From Magnetococcales bacterium (lineage in GTDB: Bacteria > Pseudomonadota > Magnetococcia > Magnetococcales > UBA8363), in the NCBI GenBank assembly GCA_002753515.1, contig PEAK01000024.1, positions 1 through 55,267 on the forward strand: DNA of 55,267 nucleotides. Direction: 5' to 3'. Below are positions 37,681 to 52,092 of the stretch, in pieces (the first letter of the stretch is position 1; each line of letters begins with the position of its first letter). The notes under the pieces are model-generated. The model was given only the letters and a program-made list of their open reading frames with translations, did no database searches and was not told the DNA's origin. The position numbers were made by a program, and so were the translations under genes.

Positions 37681-37818
37681 ATTGAAAAGAGAGTTTTTTA
37701 ATTAATGGATTCTTGATTGGAGAATTGAAACGGGAGCCCGGGTCGGCTTCCTTACCAAAAAGGGCTCAACCGAACCAGGGAGGGGTTGGAACAGGATAGC
37801 AATGCTTGGAGAACCATC

Positions 37819-38739
37819 ATGTCAATTACTTTAAACAGCAGTATCGCCTCCATCAATGCCAGGAGGCAGCTTAATAATCATTCACTGGCATTAACGCAAA
37901 CCATGGCCAGACTTTCTTCCGGGATGCGTATTAATTCATCGAAAGACGATGCTGCGGGAATGGCCATTACCAACCGCATGGTTGCACAAATACGTGGCAT
38001 GAACGTGGCCATTCGTAATGCCAACGATGGTATTTCGCTAGCCCAGGTGGCGGAAGGTGCGTTGAGTGAGACGCAGAATGCCTTGCAAAGGATGCGGGAG
38101 TTGGCCATTCAGGCTGCCAATTCGACTTATTCCTCCACGGATCGCAGTAATCTGCAATCTGAATTCACGCAGATGTTGGCGGAAATCAACCGGATCGCAT
38201 CGACAACGGCATTCAACAATGTGAGCCTGCTGGGTGGTATCAAAGTGTCCGGGAACAAGTCGTATGTGATTCAGACATTTGCCGGCACATTCCAAGTCGG
38301 TCCCAATGGCGGGCAGACGATTACGATCGCTGTGAGCCGGGCGGGTTTGGGCGAACTCGGGCTGTATCATTACAGTTACAATACCGGCACGGTTTCGACG
38401 AGTTATATCCAGACAGCCAAGGTGAGTATCCGGGTTCGGATCAGTACGGCCGCCCATGCCAACTCGGCTCTGGGTTACATTGATAGCGCCCTGGATACGG
38501 TATCCAACATTCGTGCGGCATTGGGTGCGGCCCAGAGTCGCTTCCAAACCGTGGTCAATTCCCTTTCCAATATGGTTGAGAACACGGATGCGGCGCGGTC
38601 CCGGATCCAGGATGCCGACATTGCCCTGGAGACGGCGAATCTGACCAAATTCACCATTTTGCAACAGGCCGGGGTGGCTATTCTGGCGCAGGCCAACCAG
38701 CAGCCCACGATTGCCTTGGCACTGTTGGGCAAGGTGTGA
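37819..38739 (+). CDS. Flagellin
   Basis: 306 residues from ATG 37819 (GGAG). The conserved N-terminal D0/D1 region (ALTQTMARLSSGMRINSSKD, then MAITNRMVAQIRGMN) and C-terminal D1/D0 region (SRFQTVVNSLSNMVENTDA, ending LALLGKV) flank a short, Ser/Thr/Tyr-rich variable centre (about residues 150-225). It is exported by the flagellar type III system to form the filament. The surface-exposed centre could be O-glycosylated. A sigma-28 promoter lies upstream. Confidence 0.97.
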   Translation: MSITLNSSIASINARRQLNNHSLALTQTMARLSSGMRINSSKDDAAGMAITNRMVAQIRGMNVAIRNANDGISLAQVAEGALSETQNALQRMRELAIQAANSTYSSTDRSNLQSEFTQMLAEINRIASTTAFNNVSLLGGIKVSGNKSYVIQTFAGTFQVGPNGGQTITIAVSRAGLGELGLYHYSYNTGTVSTSYIQTAKVSIRVRISTAAHANSALGYIDSALDTVSNIRAALGAAQSRFQTVVNSLSNMVENTDAARSRIQDADIALETANLTKFTILQQAGVAILAQANQQPTIALALLGKV

Positions 38740-38884: not shown

Positions 38885-39784
38885 ATGGCACTGACAATTA
38901 CAAGTAGTATTGCTTCTATTAATGCTCGTCGGCAACTTGAGAAGGCAAGTCTTTCGTTGACCCAGACCATGCAAAGACTTTCCTCAGGGATGCGTATCAA
39001 TACCTCGAAAGACGATGCTGCGGGGATGGCCATTACCAATCGCATGGTGGCGCAGATTCGCGGCATGAATGTGGCTATCCGCAATGCCAACGACGGCATT
39101 TCTTTGACACAGGTTGCTGAAGGTGCCTTGAGCGAAACGCAAAATGCCTTGCAACGGATGCGGGAGTTGGCCATTCAAGCCGCCAACTCCACGTACTCGT
39201 CCAGTGATCGCGCCAACCTGCAATCTGAATTCCAGCAAATGCTTCAAGAGATTCAGCGGATATCCAGCACGACGACCTTCAACAACGTCAATCTGCTGGG
39301 TGGTTCGGCCAACGGTAAAACCAGGGGTACTTCGTTTCAAGGGACTTTTGCTGTTGGGCCCAATGCCGGTCAGACGATTACGGTCAAGTTCAGTATCATG
39401 GGCCTATCTGGTTTGCATCTGGTTCCTCTGAACGGTGGCACGACAACGTATGTTTCTGCCATCCAGAAATCAGCTCTCCTGAGTATCGGTGTGGCAACGG
39501 CTGCCAACACTGCTCTTGGGTATATTGATTCGGCCTTGGACACGGTATCCAGCTTCAGGGCCACCTTGGGTGCGTTGCAAAGCCGCTTCCAAACCGTAGT
39601 ATCCAGCTTGTCGAACATGGTGGAAAATACGGATTCCGCCCGTTCGCGGATCCAGGATGCCGATATCGCCTTGGAGACGGCGAATCTGACCAAATATACC
39701 ATTCTACAACAAGCCGGGGTGGCGATATTGGCACAGGCCAATCAGCAACCCACGATTGCCTTGGCCCTTTTAGGTAAGGCGTAA
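38885..39784 (+). CDS. Flagellin (second copy)
   Basis: A 299-residue paralogue of the preceding gene, nearly identical in the first about 135 and last about 75 residues and divergent in the centre, where it lacks several residues. It starts MALTITSSIASINARRQLEK and ends LALLGKA. A tandem duplication is the simplest origin. The 145-bp gap shows no clear sigma-28 motif, so it may depend on the first promoter. A strong hairpin follows. Confidence 0.97.
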   Translation: MALTITSSIASINARRQLEKASLSLTQTMQRLSSGMRINTSKDDAAGMAITNRMVAQIRGMNVAIRNANDGISLTQVAEGALSETQNALQRMRELAIQAANSTYSSSDRANLQSEFQQMLQEIQRISSTTTFNNVNLLGGSANGKTRGTSFQGTFAVGPNAGQTITVKFSIMGLSGLHLVPLNGGTTTYVSAIQKSALLSIGVATAANTALGYIDSALDTVSSFRATLGALQSRFQTVVSSLSNMVENTDSARSRIQDADIALETANLTKYTILQQAGVAILAQANQQPTIALALLGKA

Positions 39785-40018: not shown

Positions 40019-41950
40019 GTGAACATCCCCGCATCGTGCCTGCGTCAGGCGATCACCATACGACTCGTGGAAGAACGTCTCCTGGAGCTGTATGCCCTGG
40101 GTGAGGTGCATGGGACCGTCCATACCTGTGTTGGACAGGAATGGAGTGGTGTTGCTGTTTGCGCGGCATTGCGGAAAGGGGACACGATTTTTTCCAATCA
40201 TCGCGGTCATGGCCATTTTTTAAGCTGGTGTGACGATGTCGAGGGGTTGATCGGGGAAATTCTGGGCCGTTCGAGCGGCGTTTGTGGTGGCTGGGGGGGG
40301 AGCCAACATCTGGCGGTGGCAGGCTTCTTCAGTAACGGCATTGTTGGAGGCATGGGGCCGGTCAGTGCCGGGGCGGCCATGGCGCACAAACTGCGCGGGG
40401 GGGGGGATATCGCCGTCCTGTTCATCGGTGACGGCGGTATGAACCAGGGTGTCGTTTTCGAGACCTTCAACGCCGCATCGCGCTTTGATTTGCCGCTGCT
40501 CATCGTCTGCGAAATCAACGGCATCGCCCAATCCACCGCCATCGATACCGTGTTGGCGGGAAGCCTCGCCGGGCGTGCAGCCTCTTTTGACATTGACATC
40601 GTGGAAGGGGATACCTGGCACCCGGAGGCATTGTTGGCATCGGCCCAGCGTGCCGTGACACAGGTGCGTTCCCGATCCCGACCGGTTTTGTTATGCGTTC
40701 ACACCTTTCGCTTGAATCCCCATTCCAAGGGCGATGATCTGCGTCCCCGGGCTCTGCTGGATGACTACAGGCAGCGGGATCTCCTCTGCCAATGGTTCGC
40801 GGCAGCGGATGGGGATATCCACACCTTGCGGGAATCCTGCCGGATGCGCGTGGAACGGGCTGTGCAAAATGCCCTGGCCGCCCCCATGGCTTGCGGCATC
40901 GAAACACCATTCCCGGCAAGGGCCGATGTTATTTGGCGTCCGGCGGTATCCCCGGGGGGGTCATTGGTTACCCGATTACGCAATGGTTGGGAGAAAGCCC
41001 TGTCCGGGGATTCCCGTGTGCTTTTCCTGGGCGAGGATGTGGCTGATCCCTACGGCGGTGCCTTCAAGGTCAGCAAGGGGCTTTCCAGTCGTTTCCCCGA
41101 ACGGGTGTACAACATGCCGATCAGTGAAGCGGCCATGGTTGGCCTGGGTGTGGGGCTCGCCCTTTCCGGCTTGCGACCGGTGATTGAAATCATGTTTGGT
41201 GATTTCTTGACCCTGGCGTTTGACCAACTTTGTAATCATGCGGCCAAATTCCATGATATGTATGGCGGGCGTTTTCACGTTCCCCTGGTGGTTCGGACCC
41301 CCATGGGTGGACGGCGCGGGTATGGTCCGACCCATAGCCAATCCCTGGAAAAACATTTTTTGGGTATCCCCGGACTCCAGGTTGCCGCCATTCATCATCG
41401 CCTGGATTGCGAAGCGATGCTGTCCCGTCTGCCCGGCTGGATTCAACATCCCCTGCTGTTGATCGAAAACAAGACCGCTTATGGCCTTGATGGGGCGGCG
41501 GGTGTGCTTGAAGGTTTCGTTTACCAGGAAACCGGGGGGCTTTTTCCAACCCTGCGGATTCACCCCGGATTGCAACCCGATGTCCTCATCTTCGGATATG
41601 GTGGCATGCTGGTGGAGATCGAGGCGGCCATGGACCGTCTTTTTGTCGATCATGACGTGCTTTGTGCCGCTATCGTGCCGACCATGCTGCATCCTTTCGA
41701 TATGGATCCGGTTTTCGAGGCATTGCGTGAAACCCACAGAATGGTCATTGTTGAGGAAGGGGCGGGATTCGCGGGTTTGGGGGCGGAGGTTGTCGCCATG
41801 ATCCATGAGCGGGGTGTTGGGCCTGTGCGGATCAAACGCCTCTCCGGGATCGCCCTCGCCATTCCAGCGGCTGTTTCCGCCGAAGCGACCCACCTTCCCG
41901 ATGCCCGGGCCATTGTCGGGGCGGTTCTAGCCATGATGCATGGTAGGTGA
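40019..41950 (+). CDS. Fused alpha/beta 2-oxoacid dehydrogenase E1 (TPP-dependent)
   Basis: A 643-residue protein with both E1 subunits in one chain. Residues about 5-290 are E1-alpha: HRGHGH, GGWGGSQH and the TPP motif GDGG...EIN (Asp138, Asn167). Residues about 312-640 are E1-beta: LGEDVADPYGGAFKVSKGL, catalytic Glu in PISEAAM (about 370) and THSQSLE. It would decarboxylate a 2-oxoacid (pyruvate or similar) and load the acyl group on a lipoyl arm. The start is GTG; an upstream ATG is closed by a stop. The next gene begins within its last 11 bp and supplies a lipoyl domain; no E3 gene is adjacent. Confidence 0.9.
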   Translation: MNIPASCLRQAITIRLVEERLLELYALGEVHGTVHTCVGQEWSGVAVCAALRKGDTIFSNHRGHGHFLSWCDDVEGLIGEILGRSSGVCGGWGGSQHLAVAGFFSNGIVGGMGPVSAGAAMAHKLRGGGDIAVLFIGDGGMNQGVVFETFNAASRFDLPLLIVCEINGIAQSTAIDTVLAGSLAGRAASFDIDIVEGDTWHPEALLASAQRAVTQVRSRSRPVLLCVHTFRLNPHSKGDDLRPRALLDDYRQRDLLCQWFAAADGDIHTLRESCRMRVERAVQNALAAPMACGIETPFPARADVIWRPAVSPGGSLVTRLRNGWEKALSGDSRVLFLGEDVADPYGGAFKVSKGLSSRFPERVYNMPISEAAMVGLGVGLALSGLRPVIEIMFGDFLTLAFDQLCNHAAKFHDMYGGRFHVPLVVRTPMGGRRGYGPTHSQSLEKHFLGIPGLQVAAIHHRLDCEAMLSRLPGWIQHPLLLIENKTAYGLDGAAGVLEGFVYQETGGLFPTLRIHPGLQPDVLIFGYGGMLVEIEAAMDRLFVDHDVLCAAIVPTMLHPFDMDPVFEALRETHRMVIVEEGAGFAGLGAEVVAMIHERGVGPVRIKRLSGIALAIPAAVSAEATHLPDARAIVGAVLAMMHGR

Positions 41951-43121
41951 CATGACGATGATTCATCTTTTGCGCACCCCGAAAATTTCCCCCAACGATG
42001 ATCGGCTTCTCGTCGTCAGATTTCTCGTCGAAGATGGGGAGCAAGTGAAAAAGGGCCGGGAAATCGTGGAATTGGAGGGGGCCAAGACAGTGGTGGCGGT
42101 GGAATCCCCTGTCGCGGGGATTTTTTACCCTTTCCAAGAGGTTGGAACGGAAGTTCCCATTGGGGGCATCGTCGGCGTGATCACTCCCACGCCGATGACG
42201 CGCAGTGACATTCTGCTCGCCCTGGCCGACGACGATACCCGACAAGCGGATGCCCCGGTTCCGTCCACGCCCGGTTCCGGCGTCCGCTTTTCCAAGGCGG
42301 CGGCAGCATGGTTGGACGACAATGGCCTTGTGGCGGATCGGTTCGCCGGTCACGGTCTGGTTACCGTTTCCCGGTTGCGGGCCATGCTGGCCGATGAGGG
42401 CAATGGACGTCCGAATGGTGTTCGTCAGGGGGTGGCACCGTCACCCGGTCGGCCCGGGGCCAACCGACGGGTGCTATTGGCAGGGGCGGGGCCGGGAGCG
42501 CACCAGGTGTTGGATATTCTTTTGCGCGATTCCGAGTCGGAGGTGATTGGCCTTTTGGATGACAACCCGGAGAAACATGCCCGGGTCATTCGTGGCATTC
42601 CCGTACTCGGTCCCCTGGAACACATGAACGTCCTGGCAACGCAGAACAAAGCCGATTCCGTCCTTTGCACCACCCCAACGGCGATTTCCTTTCGACAAAA
42701 GGTGGGGGTGATGGCGCGGGAGGCCGGCTTGCAACTGGCCACCGCCATCCACGCCAGCGCCATCATCTCGGAAACGGCGTCCATTGCCCCGGGTAGTGTC
42801 ATCGGCGCGTTGTGCTACATCGGGCCGGAAACAATTCTCGGAGAAAACTGTTTTTTAAGTTCGCGTACTACGTTTGAGCATCACAACCAAATCGGATCGT
42901 GGGTGACTACCGGACCCAATGTCGCGACGTCGGGATTGGTGGTGGTCGGTTCCGGTGTTCGGTTTGGCAGTGGTATCGTTGTGGAACCCAAGGTGATTAT
43001 TGGCGACAATGCCACGGTTGCCTCCGGTTCGGTTGTGACCAACGATATTCCAGCCCATGCCATTCTCAAACGTGGTTCCGATGGGAAACCGATCCTGCAA
43101 CCAAGGAAAGCCAATCCATGA
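41940..43121 (+). CDS. Lipoyl / E3-binding / PglD-type acyltransferase fusion
   Basis: Up to 393 residues (alternative starts ATG 41952, with AGG ahead, and 41958). Residues about 8-82 are a lipoyl domain with Lys49 in EGAKTVVAVESP, the place of the lipoylated Lys. Residues about 115-150 resemble a peripheral subunit-binding domain (RFSKAAAAWLDDNGL, FAGHGLVTVSRL). Residues about 175-240 are a PglD_N Rossmann part (LLAGAGPGAHQVLDI) and about 270-375 a hexapeptide beta-helix with the catalytic-type EHH (Glu313-His314) at the NeuD/PglD position. Thus a sugar N-acyltransferase replaces the usual E2 core. Acyl transfer from lipoate to an amino sugar is inferred. Confidence 0.85.
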   Translation: MVGDMTMIHLLRTPKISPNDDRLLVVRFLVEDGEQVKKGREIVELEGAKTVVAVESPVAGIFYPFQEVGTEVPIGGIVGVITPTPMTRSDILLALADDDTRQADAPVPSTPGSGVRFSKAAAAWLDDNGLVADRFAGHGLVTVSRLRAMLADEGNGRPNGVRQGVAPSPGRPGANRRVLLAGAGPGAHQVLDILLRDSESEVIGLLDDNPEKHARVIRGIPVLGPLEHMNVLATQNKADSVLCTTPTAISFRQKVGVMAREAGLQLATAIHASAIISETASIAPGSVIGALCYIGPETILGENCFLSSRTTFEHHNQIGSWVTTGPNVATSGLVVVGSGVRFGSGIVVEPKVIIGDNATVASGSVVTNDIPAHAILKRGSDGKPILQPRKANP

Positions 43122-44206
43122 TGGTCCCCTTTCTCGATCTGCGTGTTACCGATGTCAGCGAACGCGAAGAGCTGCTTCAGGCCGTGAATGGTGTTCTGAG
43201 CCATGGTCGCATCGTCCTGGGCCCCGAAGTGGAACTCCTGGAGGAACAAGTGGCCCGGGAGTGTGATCGCCGCTATGCCGTGGGTGTCAATTCGGGTTCC
43301 GATGCCCTGATTCTTTCATTGCGAAGTTTGGCATTGCCTCCGGGATCGGAAATCATTACCACGCCGCTTTCTTTTATCGCTACGGCCAATGCCATTCGTT
43401 TGAATGGGTTGGTACCGGTGTTCGCCGACATCGGGGATGATTTGAACCTCGATCCTGAAAGTATTGCCGGTTTGATCACACCCCGTACCAAGGCGATTAT
43501 GGTAGTCCACTGGGCCGGTAAGTTATGTGCCATGGATGCCATTGCCACCATTGCCAAGGAACGCGGGTTGATCGTGATCGAAGACGCTTCCCAGGCTTAC
43601 GGCGCGTCGATGGGGGAACGCAAGGCTGGTGGTTTCGGGCTTTTGGGTTGTTTCAGCATGAACAGTATGAAGGTATTGGCCAGCCTGGGGGAGGCGGGCA
43701 TGGTGGTGACCGACGATCTGGAGTTGCGCGACCGCTTGATCGCGTTGCGCTACAACGGCTTGGTCAACCGCGAGGAGTGCCATTATGTCAGTCATAACGG
43801 TCGGCTGGATACCATTCAGGCCGCCATGTTGTTGGTGCGGTTGCGGCGGTTCGCATCGGTGATCGATGCCCGGCGCAACAATGCCTCCTTCTACCGGGAA
43901 CACCTGAAGGAGAGGGTGATCTGCCCGGAAGAGACCCCCGGGTTCCGGGATGTCTTTTATGCGTATACCATTCGGAGTGACCGCCGTGATGATCTGAAAC
44001 GGTATTTGGAAAATCGTGGTATTGAAACCAAGATTCAGCATCCCTTCCTCATGCCGCAGCATCCGGCCTATCGGGGTTCCCCGGGTCGTTATCCCAATGC
44101 CGAACGCTTGGTGCGGATGGTATTGTCACTGCCCGTTCATGAAAAATTGACTTTCGATCAGCGCCACCGGGTGGTGGATGCGGTACAGGGTTTTTTTGCC
44201 GCTTGA
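43118..44206 (+). CDS. DegT/DnrJ/EryC1/StrS sugar aminotransferase
   Basis: A 362-residue fold-type I PLP enzyme; ATG 43118 overlaps the previous stop and follows AAGGAAAG. PLP contacts: Asp156 in EDASQAYG and the Schiff-base Lys185 in SMNSMKVLASLGEAG. The N-terminal VPFLDLR and GVNSGSDAL are typical. It should convert a nucleotide-linked keto sugar to an amino sugar with glutamate as donor, giving the amine that a PglD-type enzyme acylates. The 4,6-dehydratase that would make the keto sugar is not in the window. Confidence 0.92.
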   Translation: MMVPFLDLRVTDVSEREELLQAVNGVLSHGRIVLGPEVELLEEQVARECDRRYAVGVNSGSDALILSLRSLALPPGSEIITTPLSFIATANAIRLNGLVPVFADIGDDLNLDPESIAGLITPRTKAIMVVHWAGKLCAMDAIATIAKERGLIVIEDASQAYGASMGERKAGGFGLLGCFSMNSMKVLASLGEAGMVVTDDLELRDRLIALRYNGLVNREECHYVSHNGRLDTIQAAMLLVRLRRFASVIDARRNNASFYREHLKERVICPEETPGFRDVFYAYTIRSDRRDDLKRYLENRGIETKIQHPFLMPQHPAYRGSPGRYPNAERLVRMVLSLPVHEKLTFDQRHRVVDAVQGFFAA

Positions 44207-44215
44207 GGAATGGCT

Positions 44216-44746
44216 ATGAACCCGAAAAAGTTTATTTCCGAGGGGGAAGAGGTGTTCCGGGCGCGGGAAGCCCTGATGACCATTGAAAGATCAGATATTG
44301 AAGATCTGAAACGTAAGGCCATCGGTAACGAACGCGGGCGCTGCCGTATCTGTATCCACGCCGGTGCCAATGATCCGGTGCATGAAATGTTTATTGCCCT
44401 GAGAGGGGGTGCCTTTGATCGTCCACACGCCCATCGGGGAAAGAGGGAATCTTTCCTTATGGTCGATGGGCGCATGGCGGTGGTATTGTTTCGAGCGGAC
44501 GCCAGCATCGACCAAGTGATTCACTTGCATGCCGGCGGGCCTTGTTCCTACTATCATCTGGCCGTCTCCGGCCTTGTCCATGCGACGGTGATCCTGGAAA
44601 CGGCGGTTTTTCTGGAAATCACCCAGGGTCCTTTTGATCCCGGTGACAGTTTTTATCCCGATTGGTCCCCGGAATATGGAACGCCCGGGGCGGACGCATT
44701 CTCCTACCGCCTGCGGCAACATTTGCGAGAGAACATCCATGGTTGA
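44216..44746 (+). CDS. WbuC-family cupin metalloprotein
   Basis: About 176 residues from ATG 44216 (GAGGA, 6-nt spacing; ATG 44210 also possible). The cupin core is ALRGGAFDRPHAHRGKRESF, two His and a Glu as metal ligands, then MVDGRMAVVLF and a second His in GLVHATVIL. WbuC-type cupins occur in O-antigen and capsule loci with unknown reaction; sugar isomerisation or modification is guessed. It lies 9 bp after the aminotransferase and overlaps the next gene by 8 bp. Confidence 0.85.
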   Translation: MNPKKFISEGEEVFRAREALMTIERSDIEDLKRKAIGNERGRCRICIHAGANDPVHEMFIALRGGAFDRPHAHRGKRESFLMVDGRMAVVLFRADASIDQVIHLHAGGPCSYYHLAVSGLVHATVILETAVFLEITQGPFDPGDSFYPDWSPEYGTPGADAFSYRLRQHLRENIHG

Positions 44747-45472: not shown

Positions 45473-47071
45473 CTATAAGGTTGCCTGAATAGCTTCGCAT
45501 TGCTTCGAAAGACTGTTGTGTCCGGTCAATTTGGCAATGGCGCTGAACGTAGCAATTGTTTTCAATGTTCTGACTACCAAATTGCTGTTCATGCCATGCA
45601 TACGCTGTATGCTCTCCAGCTCCGTTCTGCAACATCCCTCTAACTGTTCCAGGATAGCGGCGGCTTTAGGATCATGAATTTGATACCGGAATGGAATATT
45701 CACAATCCGGCTCGATTCAGGATGGACCCAGATTGTATCGGCTGTGGGATAAAGATCATTACCCCAAATAGGGGCTCCGGGAAAGGCAAACATGGGTATG
45801 TTGGAGCTGATTTGACATGGTTTTTGAAGGTACATGAGACCGTAACTCGCGGTTTCTATGAGGTCATCCGTGGTGGACTCGGGAATACCGAGAATCAGAT
45901 TGATGGTTGGAAACAGACCCACATCGAAGATGGTATGCAATACTTGATGGATTTCCTCGGAACGGATGTAGGGTTTGTTGATGGATCGGCAATTGAGCAA
46001 TCGGTCTGAGAAGGTTTCTATTCCAAGGGAAACATTGTGAAAACCAGCATCCAGCATGACCTGTAACAGTTTGCGGTTGACACGCCGATCTTTTGCTTTA
46101 TCGATCAGGAAATTATTGGGCCGGGTTTGGCAGCTTAATTTTAGTTCTTTGGGGAGGATTCCATTTTTTTTGGATTGGATGATGGTATGGCATAAATCCA
46201 TGATGCGCCGGATTCCCACTCGATTGCCCACCAAAAAATCTTCATCGTTAAAGGAAAAGGACCGGACGCCGTAACTGGCAACTTGGTGGACCATTTGTTC
46301 ATGAATTTGTTCTGCGGAGAGCATGAAGAAAGGGGCTTGGCCATTTTGGGAAATGCGTAGAAAGGATTCCCCGGAGGCACAATATCCGCAATGGGCAAGA
46401 CACCGGCTTGAGGTATATAACCTGCCATTCTCAACGACAAAGGAGCGTTGATTATAGGTCAGGGCCTCTGTGGTGTTACTACGTACCATATTCCAGTAAA
46501 TCTCATAGGGAACGTTTATATCGGTAACGGTTGAAAAGGCTTCAAATTCGTCCTTGGTGAATGGAGTTACCGGATTACGGACCAGGGTGCCGCTGTGGTC
46601 AAGGTAGGCAACGCCCAGGATGTCGCCATAGACTTTCCAAGGGGCACCATTTGCTCCCGAAGCATATCGTTCACAAATTTGTGGGAATGACTTTTCTGCA
46701 TACCCTTGGACGACCAGATCAAAACCACACTCAAGCCAAACCTGAGTATTTTGTGTTGCCGATTGCCCGCCAGCCATGAATAAAGGCCTTCTATGCATAT
46801 TTTTAGTAAAAAGTTTCACTTTCCAAAGAAAGTTAAGATCATTTTTCATGAACATATGGGTAACGCTAAAGCCGAAGATTTCATAATAACCTTCTTGTAA
46901 TCTTGATAATAATGGTTCTACATGATCTGTAATATGGTCAAAAATGTCACACTCGAAGCCAAGGCGTCTGGCTTCTCTTTGCAGGCGCAATAATCCCAAA
47001 GAAGGTGAAATACTGTCTGAGTTGATATCGGCAGTCATCGTTGTCAGCAGGAGAATACGTGGCTGGGTCAT
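45473..47071 (-). CDS. B12-binding-type radical SAM protein
   Basis: 532 residues from ATG 47071 (GGAGGG). The N-terminal Rossmann part (about 5-140, PRILLLTTM, IFGFSVTHMF, MAGGQSATQN) is like cobalamin-binding domains but lacks the DxHxxG loop, so cobalamin may be absent. The radical SAM cluster motif is CLAHCGYC (about 225-232), with SFNDEDFLVGN and GIETFSDRLL beyond. The product is unknown. It belongs to an AT-richer block with three related genes, all leftward. Confidence 0.85.
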   Translation of the reverse strand: MTQPRILLLTTMTADINSDSISPSLGLLRLQREARRLGFECDIFDHITDHVEPLLSRLQEGYYEIFGFSVTHMFMKNDLNFLWKVKLFTKNMHRRPLFMAGGQSATQNTQVWLECGFDLVVQGYAEKSFPQICERYASGANGAPWKVYGDILGVAYLDHSGTLVRNPVTPFTKDEFEAFSTVTDINVPYEIYWNMVRSNTTEALTYNQRSFVVENGRLYTSSRCLAHCGYCASGESFLRISQNGQAPFFMLSAEQIHEQMVHQVASYGVRSFSFNDEDFLVGNRVGIRRIMDLCHTIIQSKKNGILPKELKLSCQTRPNNFLIDKAKDRRVNRKLLQVMLDAGFHNVSLGIETFSDRLLNCRSINKPYIRSEEIHQVLHTIFDVGLFPTINLILGIPESTTDDLIETASYGLMYLQKPCQISSNIPMFAFPGAPIWGNDLYPTADTIWVHPESSRIVNIPFRYQIHDPKAAAILEQLEGCCRTELESIQRMHGMNSNLVVRTLKTIATFSAIAKLTGHNSLSKQCEAIQATL

Positions 47072-47124
47072 TATCACCCTCCAAATCAAGCATTGATACA
47101 ATATTCATCGAAACCGAATATTCT

Positions 47125-49324: not shown

Positions 49325-50362
49325 TCATTTATTTATTGGGATCGGAAAATAGCCTTTTGGATGGTTGGCTTGTTCTAGGCTGGCGTCAGGATCAAATATT
49401 TTGCAGCCACGGCAAAATGAAATTTCGTTACGCTGACCAATCTGGTGGAGTTCCCTGATGCGGGAAAAATGTTCACCTTGCCAGATTTCTGCGATGGTTT
49501 GGTTGTGAATATCACCCATCGTCATGGTGGCATCCATATCTTGCCCACAAAGTGGAACGCGACCCATGGATGTGACATGGAAGGTGGACCAGGGGGCGAT
49601 GCAAGGTTTGTAATCCAGGTTGTGTTCGTATTCGCTTATTTTTTCTTGCCAGATATGCTGATTACCCCAGGTATGGAGCTTCTTCATGTATATCCGGTCT
49701 TGCGGACGTCGGAATTCATCCCAGAATCTTGTCCAATTCTGTATTTGTTTCTGATTCTCAGGATCATCAGGGCGAAAACAGGATACTCCACGAACCCTGA
49801 TGACAAGTTCGGGGCACTGTTTGTCCCGAAGTGCGAAAAAATTTTTTATATTGGTGATTACCGTCTCATAATTTAATCCAACCCGCAGGCTTTCATAGAT
49901 TTCTTTGTCCACGGAATCGATGGAAATCATGATTTCGTCAAGTCCAGAGTCTAGAAGACGTGTAGCCGTTTTTTCGTTTAGCAGCGAGGCGTTGGTTGAT
50001 ACGGTGACAAAGCGGATACCAATATTTTTCAATTGGCTGATGCGTTGCGAGAGATGTTTGTCGAGAAGGGGTTCTCCGGCACGTTGAACATCGACCATGC
50101 GGATCCAGTGCCTGTAGTCGCGCATCTCCTCGACAATTTTATCGAATAAGAATTGCGGCAGCTGTGGATTTGACATATCCCATCGGTCAACAGCGCAAAA
50201 ACGGCAATGTGCATTGCAATTACGAATGGTCTCTATTTGAAAAAATTGTGGGAAAACCATTTCGCTTAGGGTGTTGACAGCAAGACGGTGTGCGAGTGAA
50301 TCTAAATGGTCTTGCATATCTTCAGGAGTGATATTCTTGGATGGTAGCATTCGATGATTCAT
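49325..50362 (-). CDS. Radical SAM protein with SPASM domain
   Basis: 345 residues. The cluster-binding CNAHCRFC is at about residues 49-56, followed by GEPLLDKHL and STNASLL. The C-terminal SPASM region (about 255-330) has CIAPWSTFHVTSMGRVPLCG and ISFCRGCKIF, Cys ligands for auxiliary iron-sulfur clusters. SPASM enzymes modify peptides or sugars; no precursor peptide is seen nearby. 49222-49324 and 50363-50526 show nothing recognisable. Confidence 0.9.
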   Translation of the reverse strand: MNHRMLPSKNITPEDMQDHLDSLAHRLAVNTLSEMVFPQFFQIETIRNCNAHCRFCAVDRWDMSNPQLPQFLFDKIVEEMRDYRHWIRMVDVQRAGEPLLDKHLSQRISQLKNIGIRFVTVSTNASLLNEKTATRLLDSGLDEIMISIDSVDKEIYESLRVGLNYETVITNIKNFFALRDKQCPELVIRVRGVSCFRPDDPENQKQIQNWTRFWDEFRRPQDRIYMKKLHTWGNQHIWQEKISEYEHNLDYKPCIAPWSTFHVTSMGRVPLCGQDMDATMTMGDIHNQTIAEIWQGEHFSRIRELHQIGQRNEISFCRGCKIFDPDASLEQANHPKGYFPIPINK

Positions 50363-50526: not shown

Positions 50527-52092
50527 TCAATTGTTCCCAAATGTTGCTATCGAACGGACCTCTCCATGATAATCATATCTTTCACTTAATATGATGGATG
50601 CGGTGTTTTTCATGTTTTTGTCATAATGATAGGTGGTAAGAACGATTTCCGGGATGGTTTCCCTCCTGCCCCATTCGTATACGTCTAATTTAATATCATA
50701 CACCCGATCTTTAAATACGGCAGGGCTTGAATTGACATACCCAAGGAAATTCTTCCATTGATGACGTGATAGGATCTCCAGTACTCTATGAAAGTAATCC
50801 CCGGCACCGAATAATATCCAATTTTTCTCGTCTGCTATTCTGGCCTTGGCAAGGATCGTTGGACTTAACCTATCTTCGGTCACGCGCTTTATCTCATTCA
50901 TATAATAAGAAGCCATATCGTAATCGATATTTTTCAGCATACCAGAATTACTTAAAAGTCCTTTGAACTCTTTCTGCTTCGGGTCGATGCCAAAATAATT
51001 GTCAAACGATAAATCATCAGGCATGTATCCATGATCAATGCAGTAGCGATAAAGTTCTGATCCTGGCAACGGTACGTAGAAATGTTGGAATATGGCGTCT
51101 GGTTTCATTTCTTTGACAAATTTTAAGGTGTTTTCATAATCTTCTTGGTCTTGGGTAGGTAGGCCAAACAATAAATTTATCTTAGGGAATAGATTGTATT
51201 TCCTGCAAATCTCTATAGACTTGTATGCATCTTCCACGGTTGCCTTCTTGTTCAGAAATTTAAGAAGTTTTTCAGAGACTGTTTCCAAACCAAATCCCAA
51301 CTCGGTGACGCCCATGGCGACAAATTCTTTGGCAAATTCCTCAGAAAAAATACTGGCACGCATTTGCAGAGAAAATATTGGTGAGACATTTGCTTCATGC
51401 AATAATTTGCGAAATTTTTTGACACGTTTTAAATTTAATCCAAATGTATCATCAAAAATGACTATTCTTTCAACGCCGTATTCATTAACAAACTGTATGA
51501 TTTCATTAATAACATCTTGCAGTTGGAAAGGTTTATAGGGTTGTGAGGCGCAAAAGGTACATTCAAACGGGCATCCCATGCTGGTCAGGATATAATGCAT
51601 TTTACTTTTACGAATTTCTTCAATTTGCTTTTCAGTGAACAGACGGTTTGCGTAATATTTTGATAAGTCTTGGTGGGGTTTACCTATGATTTGTTGACCG
51701 GAGAGATTTTGATAATCGGACAAAATCTGTTGGAAAACGCCAACTCCATCTCCAATTACAACCCCATCAAAAAACGGTTTTTTTCCCAGGTCATCGGGAC
51801 AAACCGTGGGATGGCTACCACCGGCAATCACCTTGCATCCCATAGTGTGCGCTATCTGGGCTACGCGAACCGCTTGGTTGCGTTCAAATGTTCTGAGGGT
51901 TAATGCAACAAGATCGGGCTTGCTTTGTTCAATCTTGTTGGCAATTTCCTGTTCTGTATCGGCAATATCAAAGAAAACAAGATCACATTCCCAATTGGCT
52001 TCTATCGCTAACGAGGAAAGAATGGAAGCAGGGAAAGAGAATGTTTCCGAAAAAAATCCAAATAACAATTTTTTTTTCATGGTTTGACTCAT
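50527..52092 (-). CDS. B12-binding-type radical SAM protein
   Basis: 521 residues. The N-terminal B12-binding-like Rossmann domain is at about 5-135 (LVALTLRTFERN, VIAGGSHPTVCPDDLG), the radical SAM domain at about 165-380 with CPFECTFC (about 174-181) and GFGLETVSEKLLKFLNK. The C-terminal part has another Rossmann-like ILFGAGDYFHRVLEIL, as in enzymes that handle nucleotide sugars. It is a candidate for glycan or lipid modification; the substrate is unknown. ATG 52080 (MKKKLLFGFF) is an alternative start. Confidence 0.85.
   Translation of the reverse strand: MSQTMKKKLLFGFFSETFSFPASILSSLAIEANWECDLVFFDIADTEQEIANKIEQSKPDLVALTLRTFERNQAVRVAQIAHTMGCKVIAGGSHPTVCPDDLGKKPFFDGVVIGDGVGVFQQILSDYQNLSGQQIIGKPHQDLSKYYANRLFTEKQIEEIRKSKMHYILTSMGCPFECTFCASQPYKPFQLQDVINEIIQFVNEYGVERIVIFDDTFGLNLKRVKKFRKLLHEANVSPIFSLQMRASIFSEEFAKEFVAMGVTELGFGLETVSEKLLKFLNKKATVEDAYKSIEICRKYNLFPKINLLFGLPTQDQEDYENTLKFVKEMKPDAIFQHFYVPLPGSELYRYCIDHGYMPDDLSFDNYFGIDPKQKEFKGLLSNSGMLKNIDYDMASYYMNEIKRVTEDRLSPTILAKARIADEKNWILFGAGDYFHRVLEILSRHQWKNFLGYVNSSPAVFKDRVYDIKLDVYEWGRRETIPEIVLTTYHYDKNMKNTASIILSERYDYHGEVRSIATFGNN

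Follow-up and report, generated by a model that had tools for sequence, protein, structure and literature searches.

We describe a pair of adjacent genes in a contig of a Magnetococcales bacterium (PEAK01000024.1, assembly GCA_002753515.1, positions 1 to 55,267 of the forward strand; this whole stretch of 55,267 nucleotides is hereafter the window), in which a thiamine diphosphate (ThDP)-dependent E1 enzyme (40019..41950) is followed by a protein that joins a lipoyl arm to a sugar N-acyltransferase (41940..43121). Our comparisons indicate that the lipoyl arm probably feeds the fused acyltransferase directly and independently of coenzyme A (CoA), the best supported step of our interpretation. 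This step had been claimed in an original prediction made from the letters of the window alone, and it is now supported by conserved gene pairs, by two invariant residues (Lys49 and His314), by the loss of a C-terminal GxPA motif, by the absence of phosphopantetheinyl transferase (PPTase) genes from the loci that encode such fusions and by an exchange of acyltransferases in one genomic slot. We lean, with less assurance, towards the complete scheme suggested by the sequences, namely a two-protein sugar N-acylation module free of CoA and acyl carrier protein (ACP), in which a ketose phosphate would provide a glycolyl group for an amino sugar; the identity of the acyl group is its weakest part.

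The E1 and lipoyl-acyltransferase gene pair

The first gene of the pair, on the plus strand like those that follow it, starts with GTG and codes for a fused alpha/beta E1 of 643 amino acids matching the Pfam models E1_dh (E 9.6e-40), Transket_pyr (5e-27) and Transketolase_C (2e-13). The second codes for 393 amino acids, numbered here from the ATG at 41940. The overlap of the two frames, part of the original prediction, stands if translation starts there and is lost if it starts at the ATG at 41952, which leaves a gap of 1 nt.

Pfam and an AlphaFold2 (AF2) model show the lipoyl domain that had been predicted within this one protein and, together with Foldseek, its PglD/NeuD-type beta-helix. In the Pfam search that the prediction had suggested, Biotin_lipoyl (PF00364, residues 11-78, 29.7 against 22.1 bits) and Hexapep (52.8 against 27) exceeded their gathering cut-offs, PglD_N fell slightly short of its own (20.8 against 23.4), and the fusion contained no match to E3_binding or 2-oxoacid_dh. 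The AF2 model, calculated from an alignment of the 13 fusions described below, has a mean predicted local distance difference test score (pLDDT) of 81.6 and comprises a lipoyl domain (residues 9-82, 41964..42185, strands at pLDDT of about 82-95), a disordered linker (99-111), helices (119-153), a second disordered linker (154-173), a Rossmann-like domain of the nucleotide-sugar-binding PglD_N type (176-262, 42465..42725) and a left-handed beta-helix acyltransferase domain (264-368, 42729..43043). The predicted lipoylation site is Lys49 in the motif EGAKT (42084..42086). In Foldseek searches the C-terminal half matched PerB (4eab, template-modelling (TM) score 0.92 on the target), PglB, VioB and PglD; in the alignment with PerB, His314 (42879..42881) corresponds to the catalytic-type His141, the residue mutated in 4eaa and 4eab. 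The segment originally described as similar to peripheral-subunit-binding domains (degenerate, residues 117-153, 42288..42398) forms helices in the model. The matches of a profile built from 29 such segments of the family are for the most part binding domains of E2 proteins, but weak ones (E 0.02-0.6); given the missing E3_binding match, we call it binding-domain-like and no more. As modelled, the fusion is thus an E2 chain in layout with its catalytic domain exchanged.

About 85,000 genomes were scanned with an alignment of three E1s as query and the best 80 loci were kept, in 72 of which an arm gene was detected beside the E1. The C-terminal half of the arm protein varies among E2-type domains of the chloramphenicol acetyltransferase (CAT) fold, PglD/NeuD-type beta-helices, WcaF-like beta-helices and two further kinds of beta-helix. 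PglD/NeuD-type fusions occur, among the matches listed, in L021, L031, L037, L049 (where the arm gene precedes the E1), L054, L057, L061, L063, L076, L081 and L088, to which a separate search added L007. With the window, this makes 13 fusions (at least 12 other genomes) from eight phyla according to record titles, namely Bacillota, Thermodesulfobacteriota, Gemmatimonadota, Chloroflexota, Balneolota, Bacteroidota, Verrucomicrobiota and that of the window, although several of the genomes are metagenome bins whose phylum labels are only as good as the binning. All 13 fusions match Biotin_lipoyl, PglD_N and Hexapep, and their alignment has 18 invariant columns, Lys49 and His314 among them; the lysine is also invariant in 26 arm proteins of other types, where it corresponds to K43 of RenI. 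The neighbourhood survey proposed as a check of the original prediction therefore found the conserved pair in 12 other genomes and, since both residues are invariant throughout, we regard the pairing as beyond chance. DegT homologues are present in eight of the 12 other loci with NeuD-type fusions, and NeuB or cytidylyltransferase genes in L057, L061 and L007, which suggests nonulosonate pathways in these three.

The same survey revealed further kinds of loci. In L017, L035, L036, L038, L039, L047, L062, L069 and L072, an E1 of the same clade precedes a protein whose lipoyl arm is joined to a beta-helix resembling WcaF and maltose O-acetyltransferase, which keeps a GNPAK-type tail; this is probably a parallel, O-acylating version. 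E2-type arm proteins from L014, L040, L042, L048, L058, L074, L078, L080 and others end in a conserved ribbon-like tail with a CxxC...CxxC pattern. In Ruminiclostridium sufflavum (L033:11938-19110), the window-type E1 precedes a protein of 2390 amino acids in which lipoyl, 2-oxoacid_dh, ketosynthase, dehydratase, ketoreductase and carrier domains are joined, and no arm gene was detectable downstream of a Planctomycetota group of these E1s (L009, L010, L024, L025).

The genome that contains the window codes for the lipoyl synthase LipA, for a LipB/LplA-type lipoyl transferase and for two dihydrolipoyl dehydrogenases (Lpd, E3) scoring above the curated cut-off. The last two answer a worry raised with the original prediction, that the arm would be left as dihydrolipoate with no E3 to reoxidize it; no dedicated E3 lies beside the pair at the locus. 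Apart from itself, the window E1 found only three matches in this genome, all weak and partial.

Phylogeny of the E1 and identity of the acyl group

Among plasmid sequences, the window E1 matched best with RenH, from the renieramycin cluster (41.5% identity over 630 amino acids, 444 bits), with E1s of the 2-oxoacid/acetoin type, among the matches listed, well below it at 225-266 bits. The only arm match of the plasmid search was RenI, because of which the comparison with RenH and NapB was taken up. In the E1 trees, window-type E1s and RenH formed one clade, separated with a support of 100 from acetoin/2-oxoacid E1s, the latter represented by an outgroup of eight rows to which branched-chain 2-oxoacid dehydrogenase and the classical pyruvate dehydrogenase (PDH) of model organisms did not belong. 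The clade also holds E1s encoded beside non-ribosomal peptide synthetase (NRPS) condensation or polyketide synthase proteins (L033, L083, L086), together with two E1 sets of the Streptomyces type that adjoin very large open reading frames (ORFs; L089, L101). Of these natural-product E1s, RenH alone belongs to a named cluster; NapB and QncN are assigned to the clade by architecture and through RenH.

The NapB/NapD pair was reportedly described by Peng et al. in 2012 (PNAS). In this system, a two-carbon unit from a ketose phosphate passes through the lipoyl group to ACP as glycolicacyl (PMC7570522, PMC6335953), and QncN/QncL likewise take two carbons (C2) of a ketose phosphate via lipoyl to ACP as a glycolicacyl unit (PMC6335953, PMC7570522). 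Since the window E1 shares a clade with RenH and other E1s of natural-product pathways, and ketose phosphates are the substrates of their characterised relatives, conversion of a ketose phosphate to a glycolyl group, and hence N-glycolylation, is by analogy our best guess, ahead rather than settled.

The original prediction combined the same direct transfer with an E1 that takes a 2-oxoacid, pyruvate or another, and so loads an acetyl or other acyl group. The domains of the E1 do match PDH E1 models, and its stretch GDGGMNQG is nearer to acetoin-type E1s than to the GDGTLGEG of the clade. Nevertheless, the grouping with RenH apart from the 2-oxoacid/acetoin E1s included in the trees speaks against a 2-oxoacid, as do the five clade signatures kept in the window E1 (HTCxGQE, SNHRxHGH, GGSQH, HSKGDD and GGxRGYGPTHSQ); moreover, ordinary NeuD enzymes already have acetyl-CoA at their disposal, which would leave little benefit in an enzyme dedicated to loading acetyl groups. 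We consequently consider this version of the reaction unlikely.

The pairing itself has a complex history. NeuD-partnered E1s do not form one clade in the E1 trees, which force at least three changes of partner, and 0% of bootstrap trees have only one. In the tree of the NeuD domain, 11 fusions cluster (90/91) and the remaining two, from the window and L007, pair separately (100/100), a pairing that the E1 tree recovers weakly (80/59); a single origin of the fusion domain is compatible with the tree (70/87). The picture that emerges from these phylogenies is one in which the terminal enzyme of the arm would have been exchanged more than once.

Probable direct transfer from the lipoyl arm

In enzymes of this fold a C-terminal loop helps to hold CoA, and the GxPA tail of the family probably serves CoA. 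The CoA contacts of the related QdtC are listed in a review (PMC2943079). A GxPA-type motif is found at the C-terminus of all 32 stand-alone NeuD homologues and in none of the 13 fusions. A second contrast concerns carrier proteins: a PPTase gene lies near the arm gene, usually as the very next one, in 32 of 40 E2-type loci (only loci that have an arm gene and extend 1 kb or more downstream of it are counted; the tree group 'E2cat' also takes in eight loci lacking a detected arm gene) versus 0 of 21 fusion loci (Fisher p 3.5e-10, a value that overstates the independence of loci related by descent). No convincing ACP gene was found near E2-type loci by motif search or by phmmer with two carrier domains, and neither a PPTase nor an ACP gene is among the scanned neighbours of the fusion in the window. 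Most simply, the E2 version would give its acyl group to a carrier protein, while the fusions would need none.

Further evidence comes from the gene downstream of the fusion, a DegT/DnrJ aminotransferase (43118..44206; PF01041, E 4.6e-92), and its neighbour, a WbuC-family cupin (44210..44746; TIGR04366). In relatives of the window genome, DegT homologues 50-58% identical to that of the window also adjoin WbuC. In three of these loci (L150:3252-3995, L152:4942-5685 and L153:4808-5548), DegT is preceded by a hexapeptide acyltransferase that stands alone and ends in a GNPxRV tail; L151, L154 and L156 have no such gene at this slot. This arrangement shows the same slot beside homologous DegT-WbuC genes to be filled either by an ordinary acyltransferase or by the E1 and arm fusion; the swap therefore supports the DegT product as the acceptor, and the original proposal that DegT makes the acceptor amine is likely.

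An alternative with a somewhat poorer prospect than a 2-oxoacid substrate is that the arm is a scaffold or relic, or passes the acyl group on to CoA or to some other acceptor, while the beta-helix uses ordinary acyl-CoA as PerB and PglD do. The catalytic domain of the fusion is plainly PerB/PglD-like, in the relatives the same DegT is accompanied by a CoA-type enzyme that stands alone, and a GNPAK tail is kept in some other arm-fused beta-helix enzymes. Such a role of the arm is difficult to reconcile, however, with a Lys49 that is invariant across 13 divergent fusions, all of which have lost the GxPA tail, and with an E1 pairing that persists across phyla and through swaps of partner. Finally, it is very improbable that the E1 uses a keto sugar for carbon-carbon chemistry, in a branching reaction like that of YerE, with an incidental arm. 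Keto sugars are known substrates of some ThDP enzymes, and the E1 sits in a sugar-modification operon, but the lipoyl arm would have no role in such a reaction, yet nearly every clade E1 among the best 80 loci adjoins an arm gene.

Several observations count against our interpretation of direct transfer and glycolylation. The WcaF-like fusions retain the GNPAK tail even though they too are on a lipoyl arm, so loss of GxPA is not required for feeding by an arm. The window fusion scores 146.9 bits with TIGR03570 (the NeuD/PglB/VioB family), below the cut-off of 160.8, and its beta-helix, paired with that of L007, is separated by a long branch from those of the 11 remaining fusions. The window E1 deviates at clade-conserved positions (Q109V, G142N and Y147F), and its substrate may be shifted relative to the clade. 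Furthermore, the pair is present in only one of 48 genomes of the window's own class, that of the window itself; a search in this class also returned a NeuD relative without an arm (L003, G013).

Proposed reaction, gene neighbourhood and significance

From the genes, domains, conserved pairing and invariant residues observed, together with the lipoylation and E3 genes, we infer the following chemistry. The E1 would form the alpha,beta-dihydroxyethyl-ThDP adduct from a ketose phosphate, e.g. xylulose 5-phosphate, as suggested by its clade, and would move the two-carbon unit oxidatively onto lipoyl-Lys49 to give glycolyl-S-dihydrolipoyl. The swinging arm would then bring this thioester to the fused PerB/PglD-type beta-helix, which would acylate the amino group of the nucleotide sugar supplied by DegT, probably a 4-amino-4,6-dideoxy sugar. 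The dihydrolipoyl arm would be reoxidized by the cell's dihydrolipoyl dehydrogenase, and the sugar would enter a surface glycan, to judge from the position of the genes probably on flagellin.

This scheme shares with the systems composed of a two-component transketolase, lipoyl and ACP (NapB/NapD, QncN/QncL and SclQ1-4) and with RenH/RenI an E1 of the RenH clade, a lipoyl arm in the next gene and carriage of an acyl-lipoyl group, a two-carbon glycolyl in the characterised systems. There, an E2-type domain loads the glycolyl group onto a carrier protein that serves NRPS assembly, whereas the window has a sugar N-acyltransferase in place of the E2 domain and, in contrast to NapB/NapD-type systems, neither a carrier nor a PPTase nearby. 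The fusion resembles PerB, VioB, PglD and NeuD in its Rossmann and left-handed beta-helix domains (with the close structural match to PerB), catalytic-type histidine and DegT neighbour, and differs from them in its N-terminal lipoyl arm and binding-like segment, E1 partner, lack of GxPA and sub-threshold TIGR03570 score. The 2-oxoacid dehydrogenase complexes PDH and acetoin dehydrogenase (E1 and E2) have in common with the window pair an E1, a lipoyl domain, a segment like a binding domain, linkers and a C-terminal acyltransferase in E2 layout, but in the window a beta-helix sugar enzyme takes the place of the CAT fold, the E1 belongs to a distinct clade and no dedicated E3 lies alongside. Searches of the open-access literature found neither a lipoyl-NeuD fusion nor a use of this E1 in the acylation of glycans, an absence that is weak evidence.

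Upstream of the E1 lies a flagellin gene (38885..39784, plus strand; Flagellin_N/C), its product being a likely target of glycosylation, so that the gene order is flagellin, E1, fusion, DegT and WbuC; a second flagellin-like ORF (37786-38739) was read by eye only. On the minus strand, the window contains two B12-binding radical S-adenosylmethionine (SAM) proteins and one radical SAM/SPASM protein (45473-47101, 49325-50362 and 50527-52092), and a tetratricopeptide repeat (TPR)-glycosyltransferase is also encoded in this flagellin-side radical SAM region. Homologues of the radical SAM proteins and of the TPR-glycosyltransferase are also present in the DegT-WbuC loci of relatives.

The module joins two known kinds of system, the natural-product E1 with its lipoyl arm and the NeuD-type acyltransferase, possibly with a broad class behind it. 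We consider the chances evenly balanced that such modules constitute widespread, undescribed acyl donors free of CoA and carrier, in which one ketose-phosphate-fed E1 and lipoyl arm has repeatedly been joined to PglD-like N-acyltransferases, WcaF-like O-acyltransferases and carrier-directed E2 types, and which would place glycolyl groups on surface sugars. Known sugar N-acyltransferases of this fold use acyl-CoA, and those of the LpxA/LpxD type use acyl-ACP. With a lipoyl arm as part of the transferase itself, a third type of donor would be added, one that ties the decoration of glycans to central sugar metabolism. In Tannerella, pseudaminic acid carries an N-glycolyl group at C7 (2013 review, PMC3797959), and the gene for the related N-glyceroyl group was still elusive in 2018 (PMC6120980). 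If the proposed reaction is true, it would provide a candidate route for the unexplained N-glycolyl groups on bacterial glycans.

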